Source: Usitatibacter palustris
GTDB taxonomy: Bacteria; Pseudomonadota; Gammaproteobacteria; Burkholderiales; Usitatibacteraceae
Direction: 5' to 3'
Assembly: GCF_013003985.1 (NCBI RefSeq)
Contig: NZ_CP053073.1
Location: 124,001-188,000 of the forward strand
DNA: 64,000 nucleotides
Shown here piece by piece: positions 48,178 through 60,923 of the stretch. The position numbers and the translations under genes were made by a program. The notes under the pieces were generated by a model. That model saw only the letters and a list, made by a program, of their open reading frames with translations, had not been told where the DNA came from and did no database searches. Within the stretch, counting starts at the first letter, position 1; each line of letters opens with the position of its first letter.

Positions 48178-52255
<4,078 letters not shown>

Positions 52256-52331: not shown

Positions 52332-55300
52332 ATGAATGTGGGCACCCTTCGACGCATCTGCGGCGGCCTCCTGCTTTCGGCCGCGCAGCTCGTCCATGCG
52401 ATCCCCGGCTATCTCGATACGTCCTTTGGAGCCTTCGGCTTCGCGCAGGTCCTCGCGGGCCCCTCGTACGACGAAATCCATGCCGTGCGCATCCAGCCCG
52501 ACGGCAAGATCGTGGTCGCAGGCCAGAGCGCTCAAGGTCGCGGCCGGGCCTCGTTCGCCCTGGCGCGCTACAACGTCGATGGTTCGCTCGATGCGACGTT
52601 CGGCACGAATGGCGTCGTCGCGGCTTCGGTCAGCGGCGCCGACAGCCGGGCGTACGCGATGGTGCTGCAGGCCGACGGCAAGATCGTCGTTGCGGGCGCC
52701 GCCAACAACTCCAGCCCGCAATGGCTGGTCACGCGATTCAACGCCAACGGATCGCCGGATACCGGCTTCGGGAACGGCGGAAAGACCCTCGTTGCCACCG
52801 TGGCCGGCGCCGGAAGCGTGCAGGGCCTGGCGCTGCAGTCCGATGGACGCATCGTCATGACCGGCACCACGAACAGCGAGTTCGCCGTTGCGCGCCTCAC
52901 CACCAGCGGCCTCCTCGATGCGACCTTCGGGTCGGGTGGCGTCACGGTCACTGCGCTGCCCGGCGACAATTGGGCCTATGCGCTCGCCGTGCAGGCCGAC
53001 GACAGGATCGTCGTGGCCGGCACTGTCGGCCTCTCCGGGAATTTCGACTTCCTCCTGATGCGCTACACGGCGAGCGGCGTGCTCGACGCGAGCTTCGGCG
53101 GCACCGGCTACGTGGTCACGTCGCTGCAGGCGTCGTGGGACTGGGCCCGCGCGCTGCTGATCCAACCCGACGGCAAGATTGTGGCAGGCGGCTATAGCAG
53201 CAGCGGCAGCGACGAGGACTTCGGTCTCGTGCGCTATCAAGCCGACGGCACCCTCGATGCCACCTTCGGCAACGCCGGCCGCGTCACGAGCGGGTTCACC
53301 GCGGGCCACCACGACCGGATCCTCGGCCTCGCGCTCGCCGGCGACGGGAAGATCGTCGCCACCGGCTTCACGCGCAATGGCAGCGCGGCGACCGCGGATT
53401 TCGCGACGGCGCGCTACAACATCGACGGCTCGCTCGACACCTCGTTCGGTACCGGCGGCAAGGTCGTGACGCCGTTCGCTGGCGGTTGCAACATCGCGAA
53501 CGCGCTCGCCATCCAGTCAAATGGCGCGATCGTGGTCACCGGCACCGCGCCGATGGTCGATGGCAATTCCGCGTTTGCGCTGGTGCGCTATTCGCAAACC
53601 GGGACGCTCGACGCGTCCTTCGGCAGCGGCGGCATCGTGCTCACGCCGGACGTGATGCACGCCGTCCCGAAGTTGAGCGGCGTGGCCGCATTGCCGGACG
53701 GACGAATCGTCGTTGCGGGCTCGGCAGGCGCCAGCGGCTCCGACGTCGTGCTGATCGGGCTGACCGCGAGCGGCGCCATGGATTCCACGTTCGGGCAGGC
53801 AGGCCGCGTGGTGACGGGTGGGGTTGGTAACCAGGTCGCGAATGCCATGACGGTGCGGCCCGACGGCAGGATCGTCGTCGTCGGCGGGGCGGCCGGCTCC
53901 AGCAATTTCCTCGTCGGGCAATTCAATCCGGGCGGATCGCCCGATGGCTCGTTCGGCACCGGAGGGCTGGTCACGCACGCCACGGGCAACGCGTCCAACC
54001 TGCGCGCCGTGGCCCTGCAGCCGGACGGCAAGATCGTCGGCGGTGGCTCGGTCGAGTATCTGGGCCGGCAGGCCTTCGCACTCGTGCGCTACCTTGCCAG
54101 CGGGCCGCTCGACGTGAGTTTCGGCAACGGGGGCCTCGCCATCGTGCCCTTCGGCAGCCTCGACGAAGGCATCTACGCGATCGCGATCCAGCCCGACGGC
54201 AAGATCGTCGCCGGGGGCGCCGAGCATGGCGCTTCGAATGAGTTCGCGCTCGCGCGCTACAACACCAACGGCTCTCCGGATGCGAGCTTCGGCGCCGGCG
54301 GCAAGGTCGCGGGCATCATGAACGGCGTCATCCGCTCGATCGTCGTGCAACCCGACGGAAAGATCGTCGTCGCGGGCGATTCCAAGCAACCGCTCGGCGC
54401 GCGGCGGGACTTCGGTATCGCGCGCTTCAATTCCAACGGCACCCTCGATGCGTCGTTCGGATCGAGCGGCCGCGTCTGGACGGAGTTCGGCGCGGACGCG
54501 CAGCCCGTTTCGGTCCTGATCAACGACGGGAAGCTCATCGTCGGCGGCTACAACGCCACCGCCACGAACTATTCACTCGCGCGCTACCTCGCAAACGGCA
54601 CGCTCGATGTGGCGTTCGGGATCAGCGGGAAGATCTCGCATTTCGTCGGCACCGTGCCCGACTTCGCAGCGGCAATGACACTGCAGGATGACGGCCACAT
54701 CCTGCTGGTCGGCAACAGTCCCTCCGCCGGGGTCGTCGCGCGCTTCCTGAACCCGGATTCGATTCCCTCGCCCTTTGCCTTCGCGCCGCTCGCGGGGCAG
54801 GCGCGCTCGACGCTGGTGCAGTCGGCGGCGATCACGCTCCGTGGATTCAACGAGTGGACGCCCATCTCGATTGTAGGTGGCGAGTACTCGATCGGTTGCA
54901 CCGGCACCTTCACCGCGTCGACCGCCACGATCAGCTACGGCCAGACAGTGTGCGTGCGCCACACGTCGTCGGCTTCTTACGCGACGGTGACCACCACGAC
55001 GCTCACCATCGGCGGCGTGTCCGCGGTCTTCACCAGTACGACGGCGGCGACCCCCCACTTGCTCACAGTCGCCAAGGCCGGGAGCGGCGGCGGCATCGTT
55101 ACCGGCGACCTTGGCGGCGGCCCGACGATCATCAACTGCGGATCGGATTGCACGGAATCCGTACTGACAGGATCGATCGTGACGCTCACCGCGACGCCGG
55201 CCAGCGGCTCGAGTGTCGCGGGCTGGAGCCACTGCAGCGGCACGGCACCGGTTTGCGAAGTGCCGGTCAGCGCGGCGACCACCGTGACGGTCACCTTCGC

Positions 55301-56105
55301 CAGCAACCTGCCGCGGCTCGCGAACATCTCGACGCGCGGGCAGGTGCTGACCGGCAATGACGTGATGATCGCGGGCTTCATCATCGGCGGCCCCGAGGCC
55401 AAGACGGTGGTCGTCACCGTCGCAGGGCCGTCGCTCGTTGCCGCGGGCATCCCGAACGCGCTGGCAAATCCCACGCTCACGCTCGTGCGATCCTCCGATG
55501 GCGTCGTCGTCGCCACCAACGACAACTGGCTGGCGCAGCCGAATCACGCGGATGTGGCCGCGATACAAAACGCGGGCTTCGCGCCCGCCAATGCGCTCGA
55601 GCCGGCGATCATCGCAACCCTGGCACCCGGTGCGTACACGGCGATCGTGCAGGGCTCAGGCGGCACGGGCGTGGGATTGGTCGGCGTGTTCGAAGTCGAT
55701 CACGCCGAGGCGCCGCTCATCAACATCTCGACGCGCGGCCAGGTACTCACCGGCAACGACGTGATGATCGCGGGCTTCATCATCCAGGGCAGCGGCACGA
55801 AGAGCGTCGTGGTGACGGTCGCGGGACCCTCGCTCACGGCCGCGGGCGTGCCGGGTGCGCTCCAGAATCCGACGCTCACGATCGTGCGTGCCTCCGACGG
55901 CGCGGTGATTGCGAGCAACGACGACTGGCAGGCGCAAACCAATCCGGCGCATGTGGCGGCGATCCAGAACGCGGGGTTCGCACCCGCGCATGTGAACGAA
56001 CCGGCGGTCTTCCTCACGCTGCCGCCAGGCGCGTACACCGCCATCGTCCAGGGTGCGGGTGGCCGGACCGGTGTGGGCCTCGTTGCGGTGTACGCCGTCC
56101 CGTAG
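52332..56105 (+). CDS. Secreted delta-60 repeat protein with tandem C-terminal domains
   Basis: 1257 residues with an N-terminal export signal (RICGGLLLSAAQLVHAIPG). About 14 delta-60 repeats (about residues 24-785) of the type QPDGKIVVAGxxx...FALARYNxDGSLDxTFGxxG, predicted to make beta-propeller blades. Next come a Cys-containing beta domain (EYSIGCTGTFTASTATI) and a divergent repeat-type module (GSSVAGWSHCSGTAP). Two copies of a ~125-residue domain starting ISTRGQVLTGNDVMIAGFII end the protein. The neighbouring gene carries the same two-domain end. Function is unknown; extracellular adhesion or display is likely. Confidence 0.85.
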   Translation: MNVGTLRRICGGLLLSAAQLVHAIPGYLDTSFGAFGFAQVLAGPSYDEIHAVRIQPDGKIVVAGQSAQGRGRASFALARYNVDGSLDATFGTNGVVAASVSGADSRAYAMVLQADGKIVVAGAANNSSPQWLVTRFNANGSPDTGFGNGGKTLVATVAGAGSVQGLALQSDGRIVMTGTTNSEFAVARLTTSGLLDATFGSGGVTVTALPGDNWAYALAVQADDRIVVAGTVGLSGNFDFLLMRYTASGVLDASFGGTGYVVTSLQASWDWARALLIQPDGKIVAGGYSSSGSDEDFGLVRYQADGTLDATFGNAGRVTSGFTAGHHDRILGLALAGDGKIVATGFTRNGSAATADFATARYNIDGSLDTSFGTGGKVVTPFAGGCNIANALAIQSNGAIVVTGTAPMVDGNSAFALVRYSQTGTLDASFGSGGIVLTPDVMHAVPKLSGVAALPDGRIVVAGSAGASGSDVVLIGLTASGAMDSTFGQAGRVVTGGVGNQVANAMTVRPDGRIVVVGGAAGSSNFLVGQFNPGGSPDGSFGTGGLVTHATGNASNLRAVALQPDGKIVGGGSVEYLGRQAFALVRYLASGPLDVSFGNGGLAIVPFGSLDEGIYAIAIQPDGKIVAGGAEHGASNEFALARYNTNGSPDASFGAGGKVAGIMNGVIRSIVVQPDGKIVVAGDSKQPLGARRDFGIARFNSNGTLDASFGSSGRVWTEFGADAQPVSVLINDGKLIVGGYNATATNYSLARYLANGTLDVAFGISGKISHFVGTVPDFAAAMTLQDDGHILLVGNSPSAGVVARFLNPDSIPSPFAFAPLAGQARSTLVQSAAITLRGFNEWTPISIVGGEYSIGCTGTFTASTATISYGQTVCVRHTSSASYATVTTTTLTIGGVSAVFTSTTAATPHLLTVAKAGSGGGIVTGDLGGGPTIINCGSDCTESVLTGSIVTLTATPASGSSVAGWSHCSGTAPVCEVPVSAATTVTVTFASNLPRLANISTRGQVLTGNDVMIAGFIIGGPEAKTVVVTVAGPSLVAAGIPNALANPTLTLVRSSDGVVVATNDNWLAQPNHADVAAIQNAGFAPANALEPAIIATLAPGAYTAIVQGSGGTGVGLVGVFEVDHAEAPLINISTRGQVLTGNDVMIAGFIIQGSGTKSVVVTVAGPSLTAAGVPGALQNPTLTIVRASDGAVIASNDDWQAQTNPAHVAAIQNAGFAPAHVNEPAVFLTLPPGAYTAIVQGAGGRTGVGLVAVYAVP

Positions 56106-56227
56106 CCACCAGGAGCCTTAATCGGCTCGCTAGTTGTCGAATATTCCTGAATCCGGGAATCGTTCCCGCTGGTATGGTTATCGTCACGGCACGCACGCCG
56201 TAAGAACGCAATAAGAAGAGGGTAATC

Positions 56228-59200
56228 ATGCGCACGCTGTCCTCGATCTTCGGCGCGGTGGCCGTTGTGGTCACCGCCATGTCCCTGGCGCCGGTTCCGG
56301 CCCTTGCCCACGACAAGCTGGGCGCCAACCTCAACTTCATTGGCGACTTCCGGCGCAACCACGAGTTCGTGGACGTCGTGAAGCAGTCGCGGCGATTCCT
56401 CCAGATCGGGCAGTTCGACGACTCGTCCCCGACGAACCTCGCGCCCATCGGCGCCGACGGCTGGCCCACCACGGACTTCCGCCTGTTCGCGATGGCCGCG
56501 CAGCAGAACACGCTGAGCCTCGCGGGTACCTACAAGATCGAATTCACGGGCCAGGCGACCCTCTCGACGGCCAGTGCCGGCGGGGGATCGACGATCGCGA
56601 ACAAGGTGTACACCCCCGGCACGAACACCACGACCGCCGACCTCGTGGTGACCGCGGGTGCGGAGAACATGCTGATCGATTTCACCGCGACGGGCGGCAC
56701 CGTGAAGAACGTGCGCGTGCTGCGACCGGGCTATCCGCTCGCGGGCACGCCGCTCCTGCACGCGCCGTGGAAGAGCCACACCGAACGCTTCGCGGTGCTT
56801 CGCTTCCTCGACTGGACGCGCACCAACGGCAACCGCGACACCACGTGGCTCGACCGCACCACGCCCGAGAAACGGCGCACCGAGGCCTACATCGCGCAAT
56901 GGGAGACGGTGATCGCCGCAGCCAACGCGATGAATCGCGACGCGTGGATCAACATCCCGGTGCAGGCGAACGACGAGTACGTGACCAACCTCGCGACCCT
57001 CTTCCGCGACGGGCTGAATCCGAACCTCAACCTGTACGTCGAGTACGGCAACGAGCTTTGGAACTTTGCGATCCGCGACGTGGACCTCGACAACTTCGCG
57101 GGCAGCGTCTTCAACGGCGCGACCGTGAACCGCAACCTCGCGATCGCCTCGCTCGGCGGTTCGCCGCTGCGCCAGGCCTATCCGAGCGAGGGCGTGCCCG
57201 ATGACACGACCATGGGCTTTCGCCGGGTGGCGATGCGGCTCATGGAGATCAGCAACATCTTCAAGACGGTATGGGGCACGCCCGCGCTCAACACGCGCGT
57301 GCGTCCCGTGCTCGCCGGGCAGATGGCCAACAGCTTCATCGTGAGCGAGGGCCTGCGCTTCATCGACGAGATCATGAACGTGCGGCCGAATACGGTCTTC
57401 TATGCGTTGAGCGGCGCGCCGTACATCTTCGCCGCCGCGATTCCCGACGGAAATGCCGACGAGACGCCGACGAACCTGACGGTGCAGGCGATCCTCGATG
57501 GGCTGGCCGCGGGTGTCGCGAACGCGCCGAGCGACGCGAACGCCTACCAGTACCTCTCGCACGCAGGGCTCGGCGCCTGGTACGGCCTGAAGGTCGTGGC
57601 GTACGAGGCGGGCTTCGACAACTTCGGCAACCAGAACATCGCCAACAAGCGGCTCGCGAACCTCGATCCGCAGATCCGCACGATCTGCGCGAACATGATC
57701 AACCAGTGGCACGGCTTCGGCTTCGACGTGATGCTGTGGTTCAACGGCGGCGCGGACAGCTACAACACGCAGTTCGGCATGTGGCCGCTGGTCGAGGATC
57801 TCGCGGTGCCTGCGACGCCGAAGAACCAGTGCATGGATGACATTCTCGCGGCGGCACTGCCGGCCGTCACCACGGGCACGTCGGTGGGCGCGCCCATTGC
57901 GGGCGGGAATTTCCGCGGCTCCGCGAGTCCGGCGGGAACGGTGACCGGCACCAATGGCGCGTTCGGCTTCCCCGGCTTCGTCGAATTCATGTTGCGCGCG
58001 GACACTGAAGGCACCTACCAGCTCGTCTTCACCGGCAGCGCTCCGCCCGGGGAGTTCTTCACGGTGCGGCTCAACAACGCGACGGTGACGACGAACGCGA
58101 CGCTGCCCGCTGCCACCGGAGCCGGGGCACCGATCAGCGTCACGCTGCGCCGCGGCCTCAACGCGCTGCGCATCGCGCGCTCGACAGGTGGAGGCGCATC
58201 GTGGGCCATCCAGTCGTTCGCATTCACGCTCGTGGGCGATGCCACGCCCGACGCGTTCACATTCGCCTCGCAGACGGGCGTCACGCCCTCGAGCGTGGTC
58301 GTGTCTGCGCCGGCGACGATCGCGGGCATCACGATGGCGACCTCGATTTCCGTCGCTGGCGGCGAATACTCGATCGGTTGCACCGCCACCTTCACCGCCT
58401 CGACCGCGACGATCACCAACGGCCAGACGGTGTGCGTGCGCCACACGGCGTCGGCGAACTTCAACGCGGGCACGACGACCACGCTCACCATCGGTGGCAT
58501 CTCCGCGTCGTTCACGTCCACCACCGGTCCGCCGCCCAATCCGCCGCGGCTCGCCAACATCTCGACGCGCGGCCAGGTGCTGACCGGCAACGACGTGATG
58601 ATCGCCGGCTTCATCATCGGTGGGCCCACGGCGAAGACCGTCATTGTCACCGTCGCGGGTCCGTCGCTCGTGAACGCTGGAATCCCGAACGCGCTCGCCA
58701 ATCCGCACCTCACGCTCATTCGCTCCTCCGACGGCGCGGTGATGGGCTCGAGCGACAACTGGCAGGACAACGCGAATGCCGCGGCGATCCAGGCGGCGGG
58801 CTTCGCGCCGGCGCATGTGGCCGAGCCGGCGGTCATGATGACGCTTGCCCCGGGGGCCTACACCGCGATCGTGCAGGCCTCCGGTGGCGTCGGCACGGGC
58901 GTGGGATTGGTCGGCGTGTTCGAAGTCGATCACCCCGAGGTGCCGCTCATCAACATCTCGACGCGCGGCCAGGTGCTTACCGGCAATGACGTGATGATCG
59001 CGGGCTTCATCATCCAGGGCACGGGCACGCAAAGCGTCGTGGTGACGGTCGCGGGACCCTCGCTTGTCAACGCGGGCATTCCCAATCCGCTCAGCAATCC
59101 GATGATCACGATCGTCCGCGCGTCCGACGGCGCGGTGATCGCATCCAACGACAACTGGCAGACGCAGACCAACCCCGGAGATGTCGCGCTGATCCAGAAC

Positions 59201-59335
59201 GCGGGCTTCGCGCCCGCGAGCACCCTGGAGCCGGCCGTGTTCCTGACGCTGCCGCCGGGGGCGTATACCGCCGTCGTCCAGGGCGTGGGCAACGTCACGG
59301 GCGTCGGACTCGTCGGCGTGTTCCGGGTTCCCTGA
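56228..59335 (+). CDS. Secreted glycosidase-like protein with shared tandem C-terminal domains
   Basis: 1035 residues with a signal peptide ending ALA (about residue 27). The N-terminal ~540 residues look like a TIM-barrel glycoside hydrolase: a DAWINIPVQANDEYV strand, NLNLYVEYGNELWNF carrying a candidate acid/base Glu, and LKVVAYEAGFDNFG with a candidate nucleophile. A beta-sandwich region follows (about 550-690), then the Cys beta domain (EYSIGCTATFTASTATI). Two ISTRGQVLTGNDVMIAGFII domains complete it, as in the upstream protein. The substrate is unknown; exported polysaccharide hydrolysis or binding is inferred. Confidence 0.75.
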   Translation: MRTLSSIFGAVAVVVTAMSLAPVPALAHDKLGANLNFIGDFRRNHEFVDVVKQSRRFLQIGQFDDSSPTNLAPIGADGWPTTDFRLFAMAAQQNTLSLAGTYKIEFTGQATLSTASAGGGSTIANKVYTPGTNTTTADLVVTAGAENMLIDFTATGGTVKNVRVLRPGYPLAGTPLLHAPWKSHTERFAVLRFLDWTRTNGNRDTTWLDRTTPEKRRTEAYIAQWETVIAAANAMNRDAWINIPVQANDEYVTNLATLFRDGLNPNLNLYVEYGNELWNFAIRDVDLDNFAGSVFNGATVNRNLAIASLGGSPLRQAYPSEGVPDDTTMGFRRVAMRLMEISNIFKTVWGTPALNTRVRPVLAGQMANSFIVSEGLRFIDEIMNVRPNTVFYALSGAPYIFAAAIPDGNADETPTNLTVQAILDGLAAGVANAPSDANAYQYLSHAGLGAWYGLKVVAYEAGFDNFGNQNIANKRLANLDPQIRTICANMINQWHGFGFDVMLWFNGGADSYNTQFGMWPLVEDLAVPATPKNQCMDDILAAALPAVTTGTSVGAPIAGGNFRGSASPAGTVTGTNGAFGFPGFVEFMLRADTEGTYQLVFTGSAPPGEFFTVRLNNATVTTNATLPAATGAGAPISVTLRRGLNALRIARSTGGGASWAIQSFAFTLVGDATPDAFTFASQTGVTPSSVVVSAPATIAGITMATSISVAGGEYSIGCTATFTASTATITNGQTVCVRHTASANFNAGTTTTLTIGGISASFTSTTGPPPNPPRLANISTRGQVLTGNDVMIAGFIIGGPTAKTVIVTVAGPSLVNAGIPNALANPHLTLIRSSDGAVMGSSDNWQDNANAAAIQAAGFAPAHVAEPAVMMTLAPGAYTAIVQASGGVGTGVGLVGVFEVDHPEVPLINISTRGQVLTGNDVMIAGFIIQGTGTQSVVVTVAGPSLVNAGIPNPLSNPMITIVRASDGAVIASNDNWQTQTNPGDVALIQNAGFAPASTLEPAVFLTLPPGAYTAVVQGVGNVTGVGLVGVFRVP

Positions 59336-59846: not shown

Positions 59847-60923
59847 ATGAGAACTATGAACACGAACGGCAGTACGGGTCGGCCTGCGAGCATCCTCCTC
59901 CTCCTCCTGCTGTTACTGGTTCCGGAACGCGCCTTTGCGCAGGCCTGGACTGGCAACGGGCCCAACGACAACTGGAGCACAGGCGCCAACTGGGCCGGCG
60001 GAGTCGCTCCGGCGAGCAGCAGTGGGACGGTCGTGACGTTCCTTATATCGCCGCGTATGTCGCCCATCGTCGACGTGCCATGGACGATCAATCGCATGGA
60101 CCTGTTTTCCGGTGTGTACACCGTGACCGGCCAGGCGATCACCTTCGCTGGCGCGTCGCCCTTGCTGATTTCCAGTGCCCAGAATCACGTGGTCTCTGCC
60201 CCGCTGGTCATTCCGACTTCCCTGGAAATCTTCACCAACGTGAGCCTGCTGACCGTCTCGGGAGGGATCAGCGGAACGGGCGCACTGAGCGTCAATGGAA
60301 TCGGCGCAGTGCGGATCGAAGGGGTCAATACTTTCTCGGGTGGAGTCAGTGTCGTTGGGGGCACGGCCCTCCTCGTGGTCGGGTCGATCCCGGGGCCGGT
60401 TACTGTTGGTATCGCTGCAAGGGTGTCTGGCGCTTTCGGCACTGTGGGCGGCGACGTCATCGTGCAGTCAACCGGCTACATCGCTTCCACGTCCTCTTAC
60501 CTGGCGCTCAGCACCGGCAATCTCACGATCGCCGGGACGGCCCTGGTGCATATCGGTGGCCCGGCACCGGGCACGCAGTACGGGATCATCAACGTCACGG
60601 GTACCGTCAACCTCACCGGCGGGACGCTTGTGCTCACCGGTGGACATTCGCCGTCGCCGGGTCAGGTCTTCACCATCATCACCAACGACGGCGGCGAGCC
60701 GGTCACAAGTACGTTCGCGGGACTCCCGGAGGGCGGGACGGTTCTTCTCAACGGCGTGCCGCTGCGCATCTCCTACCTCGGGGGTACCGGCAACGACGTG
60801 ACGTTGACCGCGTTGGGCGGCGCGCCTCCCGTCTCGGTGCCCACGCTTTCGCAATGGTCGCTCCTGCTACTGGCTACGTTCGTGCTGGGTATCGGATCGC
60901 TCGCCTCGAAGCGCAAGAGGTAA
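59847..60923 (+). CDS. Autotransporter-repeat-like protein with IPTL-CTERM sorting signal
   Basis: 358 residues from ATG 59847. Signal sequence (LLLLLLLLVPERAFAQ), then Gly/Thr/Val-rich beta-strand repeats (VSGGISGTGALSVNG, VEGVNTFSGGVSVVGG-like) typical of beta-helix passenger regions. The C-terminus is V-P-T-L-S-Q-W-S followed by a hydrophobic helix and S-K-R-K-R, a classic IPTL-CTERM tail for exosortase-type processing. It should be a surface or matrix protein; its sortase must be encoded elsewhere. Confidence 0.88.
   Translation: MRTMNTNGSTGRPASILLLLLLLLVPERAFAQAWTGNGPNDNWSTGANWAGGVAPASSSGTVVTFLISPRMSPIVDVPWTINRMDLFSGVYTVTGQAITFAGASPLLISSAQNHVVSAPLVIPTSLEIFTNVSLLTVSGGISGTGALSVNGIGAVRIEGVNTFSGGVSVVGGTALLVVGSIPGPVTVGIAARVSGAFGTVGGDVIVQSTGYIASTSSYLALSTGNLTIAGTALVHIGGPAPGTQYGIINVTGTVNLTGGTLVLTGGHSPSPGQVFTIITNDGGEPVTSTFAGLPEGGTVLLNGVPLRISYLGGTGNDVTLTALGGAPPVSVPTLSQWSLLLLATFVLGIGSLASKRKR

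Follow-up and report, generated by a model that had tools for sequence, protein, structure and literature searches.

A paired PPC-like domain closes 18 predicted exported proteins of Usitatibacter palustris, and relatives carry other tails on one of these proteins

Two neighbouring genes of Usitatibacter palustris, located in a stretch of 64,000 nucleotides (the window; positions 124,001 to 188,000 of contig NZ_CP053073.1, assembly GCF_013003985.1), encode putatively secreted proteins, here carriers 1 and 2, that each end in two copies of a domain of about 126 residues. We found the same C-terminal tail on proteins elsewhere in this genome (G000; a single contig of 3.96 Mb), and the presence of one tail on 18 otherwise unrelated exported proteins, together with the presence of other tails in close relatives, suggests that the tail is an exchangeable tag by which exported proteins are positioned on the cell surface or within the surrounding matrix.

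Results

One C-terminal tail on 18 proteins

The U. palustris genome holds 35 copies of the domain in 18 proteins, 17 of which carry a pair and one a single copy. The last copy ends 0-4 residues from the stop in 18/18 carriers, and the members of a pair are joined by a seven-residue linker close to HPEVPLI. All 18 carriers showed a loose signal-peptide pattern, 16 of them at the first start codon considered, compared to 14 of the 65 open reading frames (ORFs) of the fetched stretches of this genome, a comparison set that includes some of the carriers; in two of these 16 (at 3055862 and 3469327) the pattern sits at a probably wrong start, and a plausible signal peptide was seen by eye further in. 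The parts that precede the tail are diverse. A Pfam scan covering 12 of the 18 carriers assigned them to delta-60/DUF5122, RCC1 (two carriers), NHL, an M12 reprolysin-like metallopeptidase with Calx-beta, glucose/sorbosone dehydrogenase (GSDH), DUF1565 and Flg_new_2 only, with four carriers lacking any family. A CAP/SCP fold, suggested by eye for the carriers at 3465580 and 3478207, drew no Pfam family and is not claimed.

In the window itself, the first-pass annotation had proposed four domain copies, paired at the ends of two neighbouring secreted proteins, and this was borne out by the coordinates (Table 1) and by DNA identity: a stretch of 300 nt occurs four times, its identity to the reference copy being 66-85%, positions 55661-55960 and 58891-59190 are 85% identical, and one copy matched the best other genome site with E = 1.5e-60, far above chance. 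Carrier 1 is a delta-60 protein, as had been stated, with 14 such stretches (NCBIfam TIGR02608). Carrier 2, whose ORF lies directly downstream on the + strand, had been called glycosidase-like; no Pfam or NCBIfam match at E <= 1 was obtained with the full-length protein, and the label is left without support. The related cysteine-containing region described before the domain in both proteins does recur, but in carrier 1 an Flg_new_2 repeat intervenes between this region and the tail pair.

N and C copies of the domain are mostly separate in the tree (4 changes compared to 11.5 in shuffles), which argues that the pair spread as a unit. By far the most diverged N copy is that of the carrier at 3469327-3471759 (branch 1.44; 41% identity to the query); it contains the motif VVIRAMGPSL, as in verrucomicrobial copies.

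Other tails on the same proteins in relatives

The N-terminal part of carrier 2 had one match each in G004 (70.6% identity) and G002 (50.2%), which belong to the same genus, and in G010 (67.8%), of the same family, and in all three the homology stops at residue 667-675. Beyond this point the G004 and G010 orthologues carry FG-GAP repeats (the G004 tail matches Pfam FG-GAP_3 with E 2.9e-47), and the G002 orthologue ends in a third, different tandem tail; partial matches to the N-terminal part were found in G026 and G058. The third module (the MWFDPAESGWGLNLNHQ type) gave no Pfam match at E <= 0.01 and is present in 10 of the 12 genomes checked, U. palustris included, with 43 matches in G002, 29 in G004 and 19 in G000.

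Homologues of the other carriers were sought in fetched stretches of G004 and G010. FG-tailed homologues were found for the metallopeptidase carrier (54%, G010), for carrier 3458109 (54%, G004; 50%, G010), for carrier 3453460 (49%, G004), for the GSDH carrier (46%, G004), for carriers 3465580 and 3478207 (41% and 38%, G004) and, by repeats or at lower identity, for the delta-60 and RCC1 carriers. As read from the match table, FG-tailed homologues cover about 65% or more of the N-terminal part in 12/18 carriers, in seven of them through a non-repeat part, with the coverage of carrier 3453460 counted from its likely start at residue 179; the remaining six had a partial match or none among these stretches. 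Reciprocal best hits between the fetched G000 and G004 stretches, the window left out, comprised seven genes, six of which are carriers, at 29-49% identity. The homologues of carrier 3458109 and of the GSDH carrier are joined in one ORF in G004. On these sequence comparisons, we claim orthology for carrier 2 alone.

The FG-GAP tail is itself a house tail. Within the fetched stretches it is terminal, ending within 3 residues of the protein end, in 48 of the 50 FG-tailed ORFs of G004 and in 27/27 of G010, one ORF cut by a stretch end having been dropped from the count. Two FG-GAP ORFs at 3037349-3043410 of G004 differ from the other 48 in that the tail is followed by 161-162 extra residues, whose ends resemble each other (RYEHNGCAYGA...). 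At E <= 1e-25 the FG-GAP tail was detected in 5 of 61 genomes (G003, G004, G010, G023 and G027) and at 1e-10, over 11 genomes, weakly also in G006, G008 and G009, with none in U. palustris at either threshold. The tails of G004 and G010 share about 40% identity. Because two genera share FG-GAP on the carrier 2 protein, we weakly favour FG-GAP as the older state on that protein.

PVL lectins belong to the VCBS/FG-GAP propeller group, and in PVL and tachylectin-2 a GW located between blades contributes to the sugar pocket (PMC8023676). In 235/265 blades of the G004 tails, a GW lies in the 11 residues preceding the Asp motif, and by analogy this GW may occupy the same loop as in that sugar pocket.

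Fold and family of the tail domain

Structure prediction, which had been proposed as a check on the domain, yielded a confident model. AlphaFold2 gave a predicted local distance difference test score (pLDDT) of 95.2 and a predicted template modelling score (pTM) of 0.89 with 68 pairs in the input, and 94.4 and 0.88 for one C copy alone. Against solved structures, the single-copy model aligned with the C-terminal domain of Tk-SP (Z 10.2; 96 aligned, 3.0 A), the collagen-binding domain of ColG (Z 9.6; 91 aligned, 2.4 A) and the PPC domain 5sv5 (Z 9.4; 94 aligned, 2.5 A), so that the tail domain is confidently modelled as a jelly roll of the PPC type. Pair-level Foldseek searches gave low template modelling scores (0.19-0.34, over the 27 rows with E <= 0.001 and LipL32). 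Some of the pair-level alignments extend over both domains, which raised the possibility of domain swapping within the pair; swapping is not needed, since the C copy folds alone with high pLDDT.

The profile search likewise proposed for the domain placed both window pairs over the cut-off of 29 for NCBIfam NF038127, the DVUA0089 family (34.9 and 35.8 bits), with single domains below it (15.0, 17.3 and 20.3 bits, and one without a match) and no match at E <= 1 for the full-length window proteins. The same profile matched 58 of the 68 pairs at E <= 0.1 (best 1.3e-15). The suggestion that the domain lacks a known name is nearly right: it holds for Pfam, where no family passed its cut-off on the tail among the scores shown, but not for NCBIfam, where the window pairs pass NF038127. 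The Pfam PPC family PF04151 (gathering score 25.9) had no match in the window proteins, was listed for 2 of 10 pairs scanned singly (best 13.2 bits, below that score), and matched 14 of the 68 pairs at E <= 1 (best 0.0014). A galactose-binding domain, GBD_IRG7_N, matched 29 of the 68 pairs at E <= 1 (best 3.9e-5) and reached at best 18.0 bits, against a cut-off of 27, in ten pairs scanned singly; it is not claimed. We regard the tail as a divergent relative of the DVUA0089 family and of PPC-like domains that occurs as a pair at the protein end.

We know of no function for the NF038127 family. DVUA0089 of D. vulgaris stands in a regulon labelled "Exopolysaccharide and biofilm synthesis" (PMC4641369). 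As for PPC domains, PMC3236237 describes two C-terminal PPC domains of M. xanthus FibA as the fragment recovered from spore coat and matrix; it presents PPC repeats as presumably cleaved off and as a requirement for localisation, activity or stability.

Distribution, origin and age

A search at E <= 1e-5 gave no PPC-like tail in 60 relatives, made up of 5 members of the genus, 22 of the family and 33 of the order, and a class-level search gave matches in 5 of 369 genomes, U. palustris included, two of the other four being weak, one of these with internal stops. A search of a collection of bacterial and archaeal genomes confirmed 542 loci, of which the best 80, which lean to close relatives, are described here: by record titles 74 are verrucomicrobial, 4 are from Pseudomonadota and 2 are named "bacterium", with no Bacteroidota among them. 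These 80 loci hold 105 ORFs with the domain, seven of which were dropped as their 3' end was out of view. The last copy lies 0-5 residues before the stop in 92 of the 98 ORFs counted, which contain two copies in 89 cases, one in 8 and four in 1; the six exceptions have 25 to 585 residues beyond the last copy, and one of them holds a run of X and some look broken. Across sixteen genomes behind such loci, the pair profile matched 1 to 141 times. The highest number belongs to a Spartobacteria genome of 4.4 Mb (G428), with at least 141 matches among the 150 of its 178 candidates that were scored.

The 17 pairs of U. palustris form one clade with a Shimodaira-Hasegawa-like approximate likelihood ratio test (SH-aLRT) support of 98, beside sequences of a Competibacteraceae and an uncultured betaproteobacterium (97). 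Because of this position, a proteobacterial source of the tail would be the likelier one, and a direct origin from Verrucomicrobiota was set aside. Across the 68 pairs, which come from several phyla, 12 columns are invariant.

From the high DNA identity between copies, the first-pass annotation had considered a recent duplication or gene conversion event likely. Tail pairs of U. palustris differ at a median of 45% of fourfold sites, with 59% expected for unrelated sequence of the same composition, and the two window pairs, which rank 4 of 136 in DNA identity, differ at 38%. The tails of neighbouring carriers are no more alike (DNA identity 0.723, n = 11) than those of other carriers (0.721, n = 125), and a longest-run test gave a small excess (7/136 pairs at p <= 0.005) that may stem from conserved motifs. 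These comparisons leave recent gene conversion or duplication unsupported and indicate that the tail pairs are not recent copies. For the N-terminal part of carrier 2, the share of fourfold sites that differ is 36-38% against each of G004, G010 and G002 and does not follow protein identity, which implies that these sites are near saturation; the dating of the tail against the species split was abandoned for this reason.

The window genes and gene neighbourhoods

Table 1. Features of the two tail-carrying genes of the window (window coordinates).
Feature	Position	Strand	Basis or remark
Carrier 1: secreted delta-60 repeat protein, 1257 aa	52332..56105	+	ORF; signal-peptide-like start by loose pattern
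Cys-containing region, carrier 1	54780..54973	+	73% DNA identity to 58262-58455
InlB-like repeat (Pfam Flg_new_2), carrier 1, aa 940-992	55149..55307	+	Pfam; no such match in carrier 2
Tail domain, N copy, carrier 1	55323..55700	+	
Tail domain, C copy, carrier 1, reaching the stop	55722..56102	+	
Carrier 2: secreted protein, 1035 aa, no family assigned	56228..59335	+	ORF; loose signal-peptide pattern
N-terminal part of carrier 2, common to G004, G010 and G002 proteins with other tails	56309..58252	+	Homology up to aa 667-675
Cys-containing region, carrier 2	58262..58455	+	DNA comparison with carrier 1
Tail domain, N copy, carrier 2	58556..58930	+	
Tail domain, C copy, carrier 2, reaching the stop	58952..59332	+	Structure models made

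Thirteen of the 18 carriers lie at 3433-3480 kb of the U. palustris genome. Around and between them, Pfam identified GDP-mannose dehydratase-type enzymes, an ABC2_membrane transporter, an ATPase with Wzt_C, GT2 enzymes, an MBOAT acyltransferase and a nucleotidyl transferase, and 7 of the 16 Glycos_transf_2 (GT2) matches of the genome, in 6 ORFs, fall within 3410-3484 kb. A type II secretion system (T2SS) operon at 3394-3405 kb adjoins this main cluster, with matches to T2SSE, F, G and M and a secretin; GspD scored over its cut-off. The G004 cluster at 3005-3112 kb accounts for 30 of the 50 FG tails, and its flanks contain Capsule_synth, Poly_export/SLBB, ABC2_membrane, glycosyltransferase and APS-kinase genes. 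By eye, the flanks in G010 comprise one contig end with epimerase-like and methyltransferase-like genes and another with fatty-acid genes. No partner gene stood out between the U. palustris carriers when a longest-ORF listing, spurious ORFs included, was inspected by eye. Two further carriers at 3050-3065 kb sit beside protein-kinase-like and sigma-factor-like genes, named by eye.

In the window, positions 51398-52255 (+) encode a protein with FecR and SPOR domains. Downstream of carrier 2, positions 59847-60923 (+) encode a secreted protein with an IPTL-CTERM motif (Pfam PF18203, 21 bits, cut-off 20.8), in a genome without an exosortase (PF09721) match at E <= 1e-5.

Discussion

The first-pass annotation had suggested a cell-surface anchor or a secretion module. 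The extreme C-terminal position of the domain in all 18 carriers, with their differing N-terminal parts, and in 92 of the 98 ORFs from other genomes fits both and does not decide between them. The reading we favour, held tentatively and with slightly less than even confidence, is that the pair is a lectin-like localisation tail that docks to the species' own surface glycan. The carriers would leave the cytoplasm via their signal peptides and probably cross the outer membrane by type II secretion; the two jelly-roll domains would then hold them at the cell surface or in the extracellular matrix, most likely through binding of the organism's own surface polysaccharide. Relatives would equip the same proteins with the unrelated but equivalent FG-GAP/VCBS tail, whose propeller group has lectins among its members, and the tail would differ between species because the docking partner differs. 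That the pair is terminal, sits on varied cargo and has unrelated counterparts on one orthologue speaks for docking and against a role as part of any enzyme. The glycan genes around the main clusters, the GW of the G004 blades, the FibA fragment from spore coat and matrix and the regulon of DVUA0089 also speak for this reading.

Several observations weigh against this reading. For the carriers other than carrier 2 the relationship is homology, partly of repeats, rather than good orthology. The PPC-like tail was found in one of the 28 family genomes searched, which leaves a single instance of its excluding the FG-GAP tail. Folds that are not of the PPC type follow closely in the fold list (PliG, Z 8.8; GOLD domain, 8.7; LipL32, 8.4), some PPC-type domains bind collagen, and the blades of G010 are nearly devoid of GW (9/103). 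The glycan neighbourhood was seen in two genomes, where it may still reflect chance; by eye, the flanks of a second G004 cluster (15 of the 50 FG tails) hold no glycan genes and the locus of the window no surface-polysaccharide genes, and 5/18 carriers, both window carriers included, are outside the glycan locus. As for the export route, a GspD-type match was present in 12/12 genomes checked (5 over cut-off) and is hence non-discriminating.

A stronger form of the docking proposal seems rather doubtful to us: the tail would be a species-specific house tag, in which dozens of unrelated exported proteins share a lectin-like tail fitted to the polysaccharide of the species, and glycan locus and tail would be exchanged together in evolution, so that the tail of the exported set changes with the glycan.

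The strict C-terminal position, the varied cargo, the T2SS operon beside the main cluster and the up to 141 profile matches per genome would also suit an export signal, that is, a folded C-terminal address read by an outer-membrane translocon (type II or other) like the type IX C-terminal domain, with the tails of relatives as alternative addresses. We think this unlikely, as unrelated tails on orthologues would be hard for one translocon to read, no tail-specific translocon is known (our genome searches covered GspD and exosortase only), and the type IX profile TIGR04183 matches 3 of the 68 tail members, with a best E of 0.081. Binding of foreign insoluble material, such as plant, fungal or soil polymers, in the manner of the carbohydrate- or collagen-binding modules of secreted enzymes, would agree with the fold class of collagen-binding domains and with the enzyme families in 2 of the 12 carriers scanned (metallopeptidase and GSDH); the other 10 lack an enzyme family, though four of these have no family whatever, and one tail on many proteins with another in relatives would fit a self ligand better, so that this explanation is distinctly unlikely.

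It is improbable that the pair is a maturation or stability domain removed after export, as is thought for the PPC domains of proteases (PMC3236237): the PPC-type fold is as this explanation would have it, but a peptidase family was assigned to 1 of the 12 carriers scanned. Finally, the sharing of further modules among these proteins, namely the Cys-containing region and Flg_new_2, would be expected of a cassette spread by recombination and tolerated at protein ends without a common function; with the 12 invariant columns over several phyla, two copies in 17/18 carriers and N and C copies mostly apart in the tree, we regard such a cassette as very improbable.

Should the docking reading hold, it would account for the retention of a large exported proteome at the surface of Gram-negative bacteria from more than one phylum via a folded tail, without type IX secretion, and the tail would provide a sequence mark for listing the surface-held proteome. 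The differing tails on the same protein within one family would in turn be a natural experiment on the purpose of C-terminal modules.

Comparison with known systems

The closest named family is NF038127 (FDP_fam), to which the tail is linked by the matches of both window pairs; its model, however, has 150 positions, its description includes no terminal pair, and single tail domains score below its cut-off. The PPC domains of PF04151, as in FibA and collagenases, share the fold class, and FibA too has two C-terminal domains. They differ in that the tail domain has 126 residues compared to 70 model positions, in that no score exceeded the gathering score for the window proteins or for ten pairs scanned singly, and in that a peptidase family was found in just one of 12 carriers scanned.

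The C-terminal domain of type IX secretion would work alike under the export reading, with one C-terminal beta domain on many cargoes. The few TIGR04183 matches leave the tail members outside type IX cargo, and the titles of the best 80 of the 542 tail loci include no Bacteroidota. In the PEP-CTERM/exosortase system, a common C-terminal sorting element, linked to exopolysaccharide, is likewise found on many cargoes. That sorting element is a short helix, whereas the tail of U. palustris is a folded pair of 260 residues; moreover, U. palustris gave 0 matches to the exosortase EpsH (PF09721) at E <= 1e-5, compared to a match in 7/7 verrucomicrobial genomes of the same search.

A literature search, with most subscription journals outside its coverage, found no account of this tail, of tail exchange or of the choice-of-anchor concept, and the finding of different tails on one protein across relatives is new in that no prior account was found. 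The "choice-of-anchor" naming used at NCBI applies to a single protein family with C-terminal anchors that differ by lineage. U. palustris presents a different arrangement, in which many different proteins carry one tail that its relatives lack.

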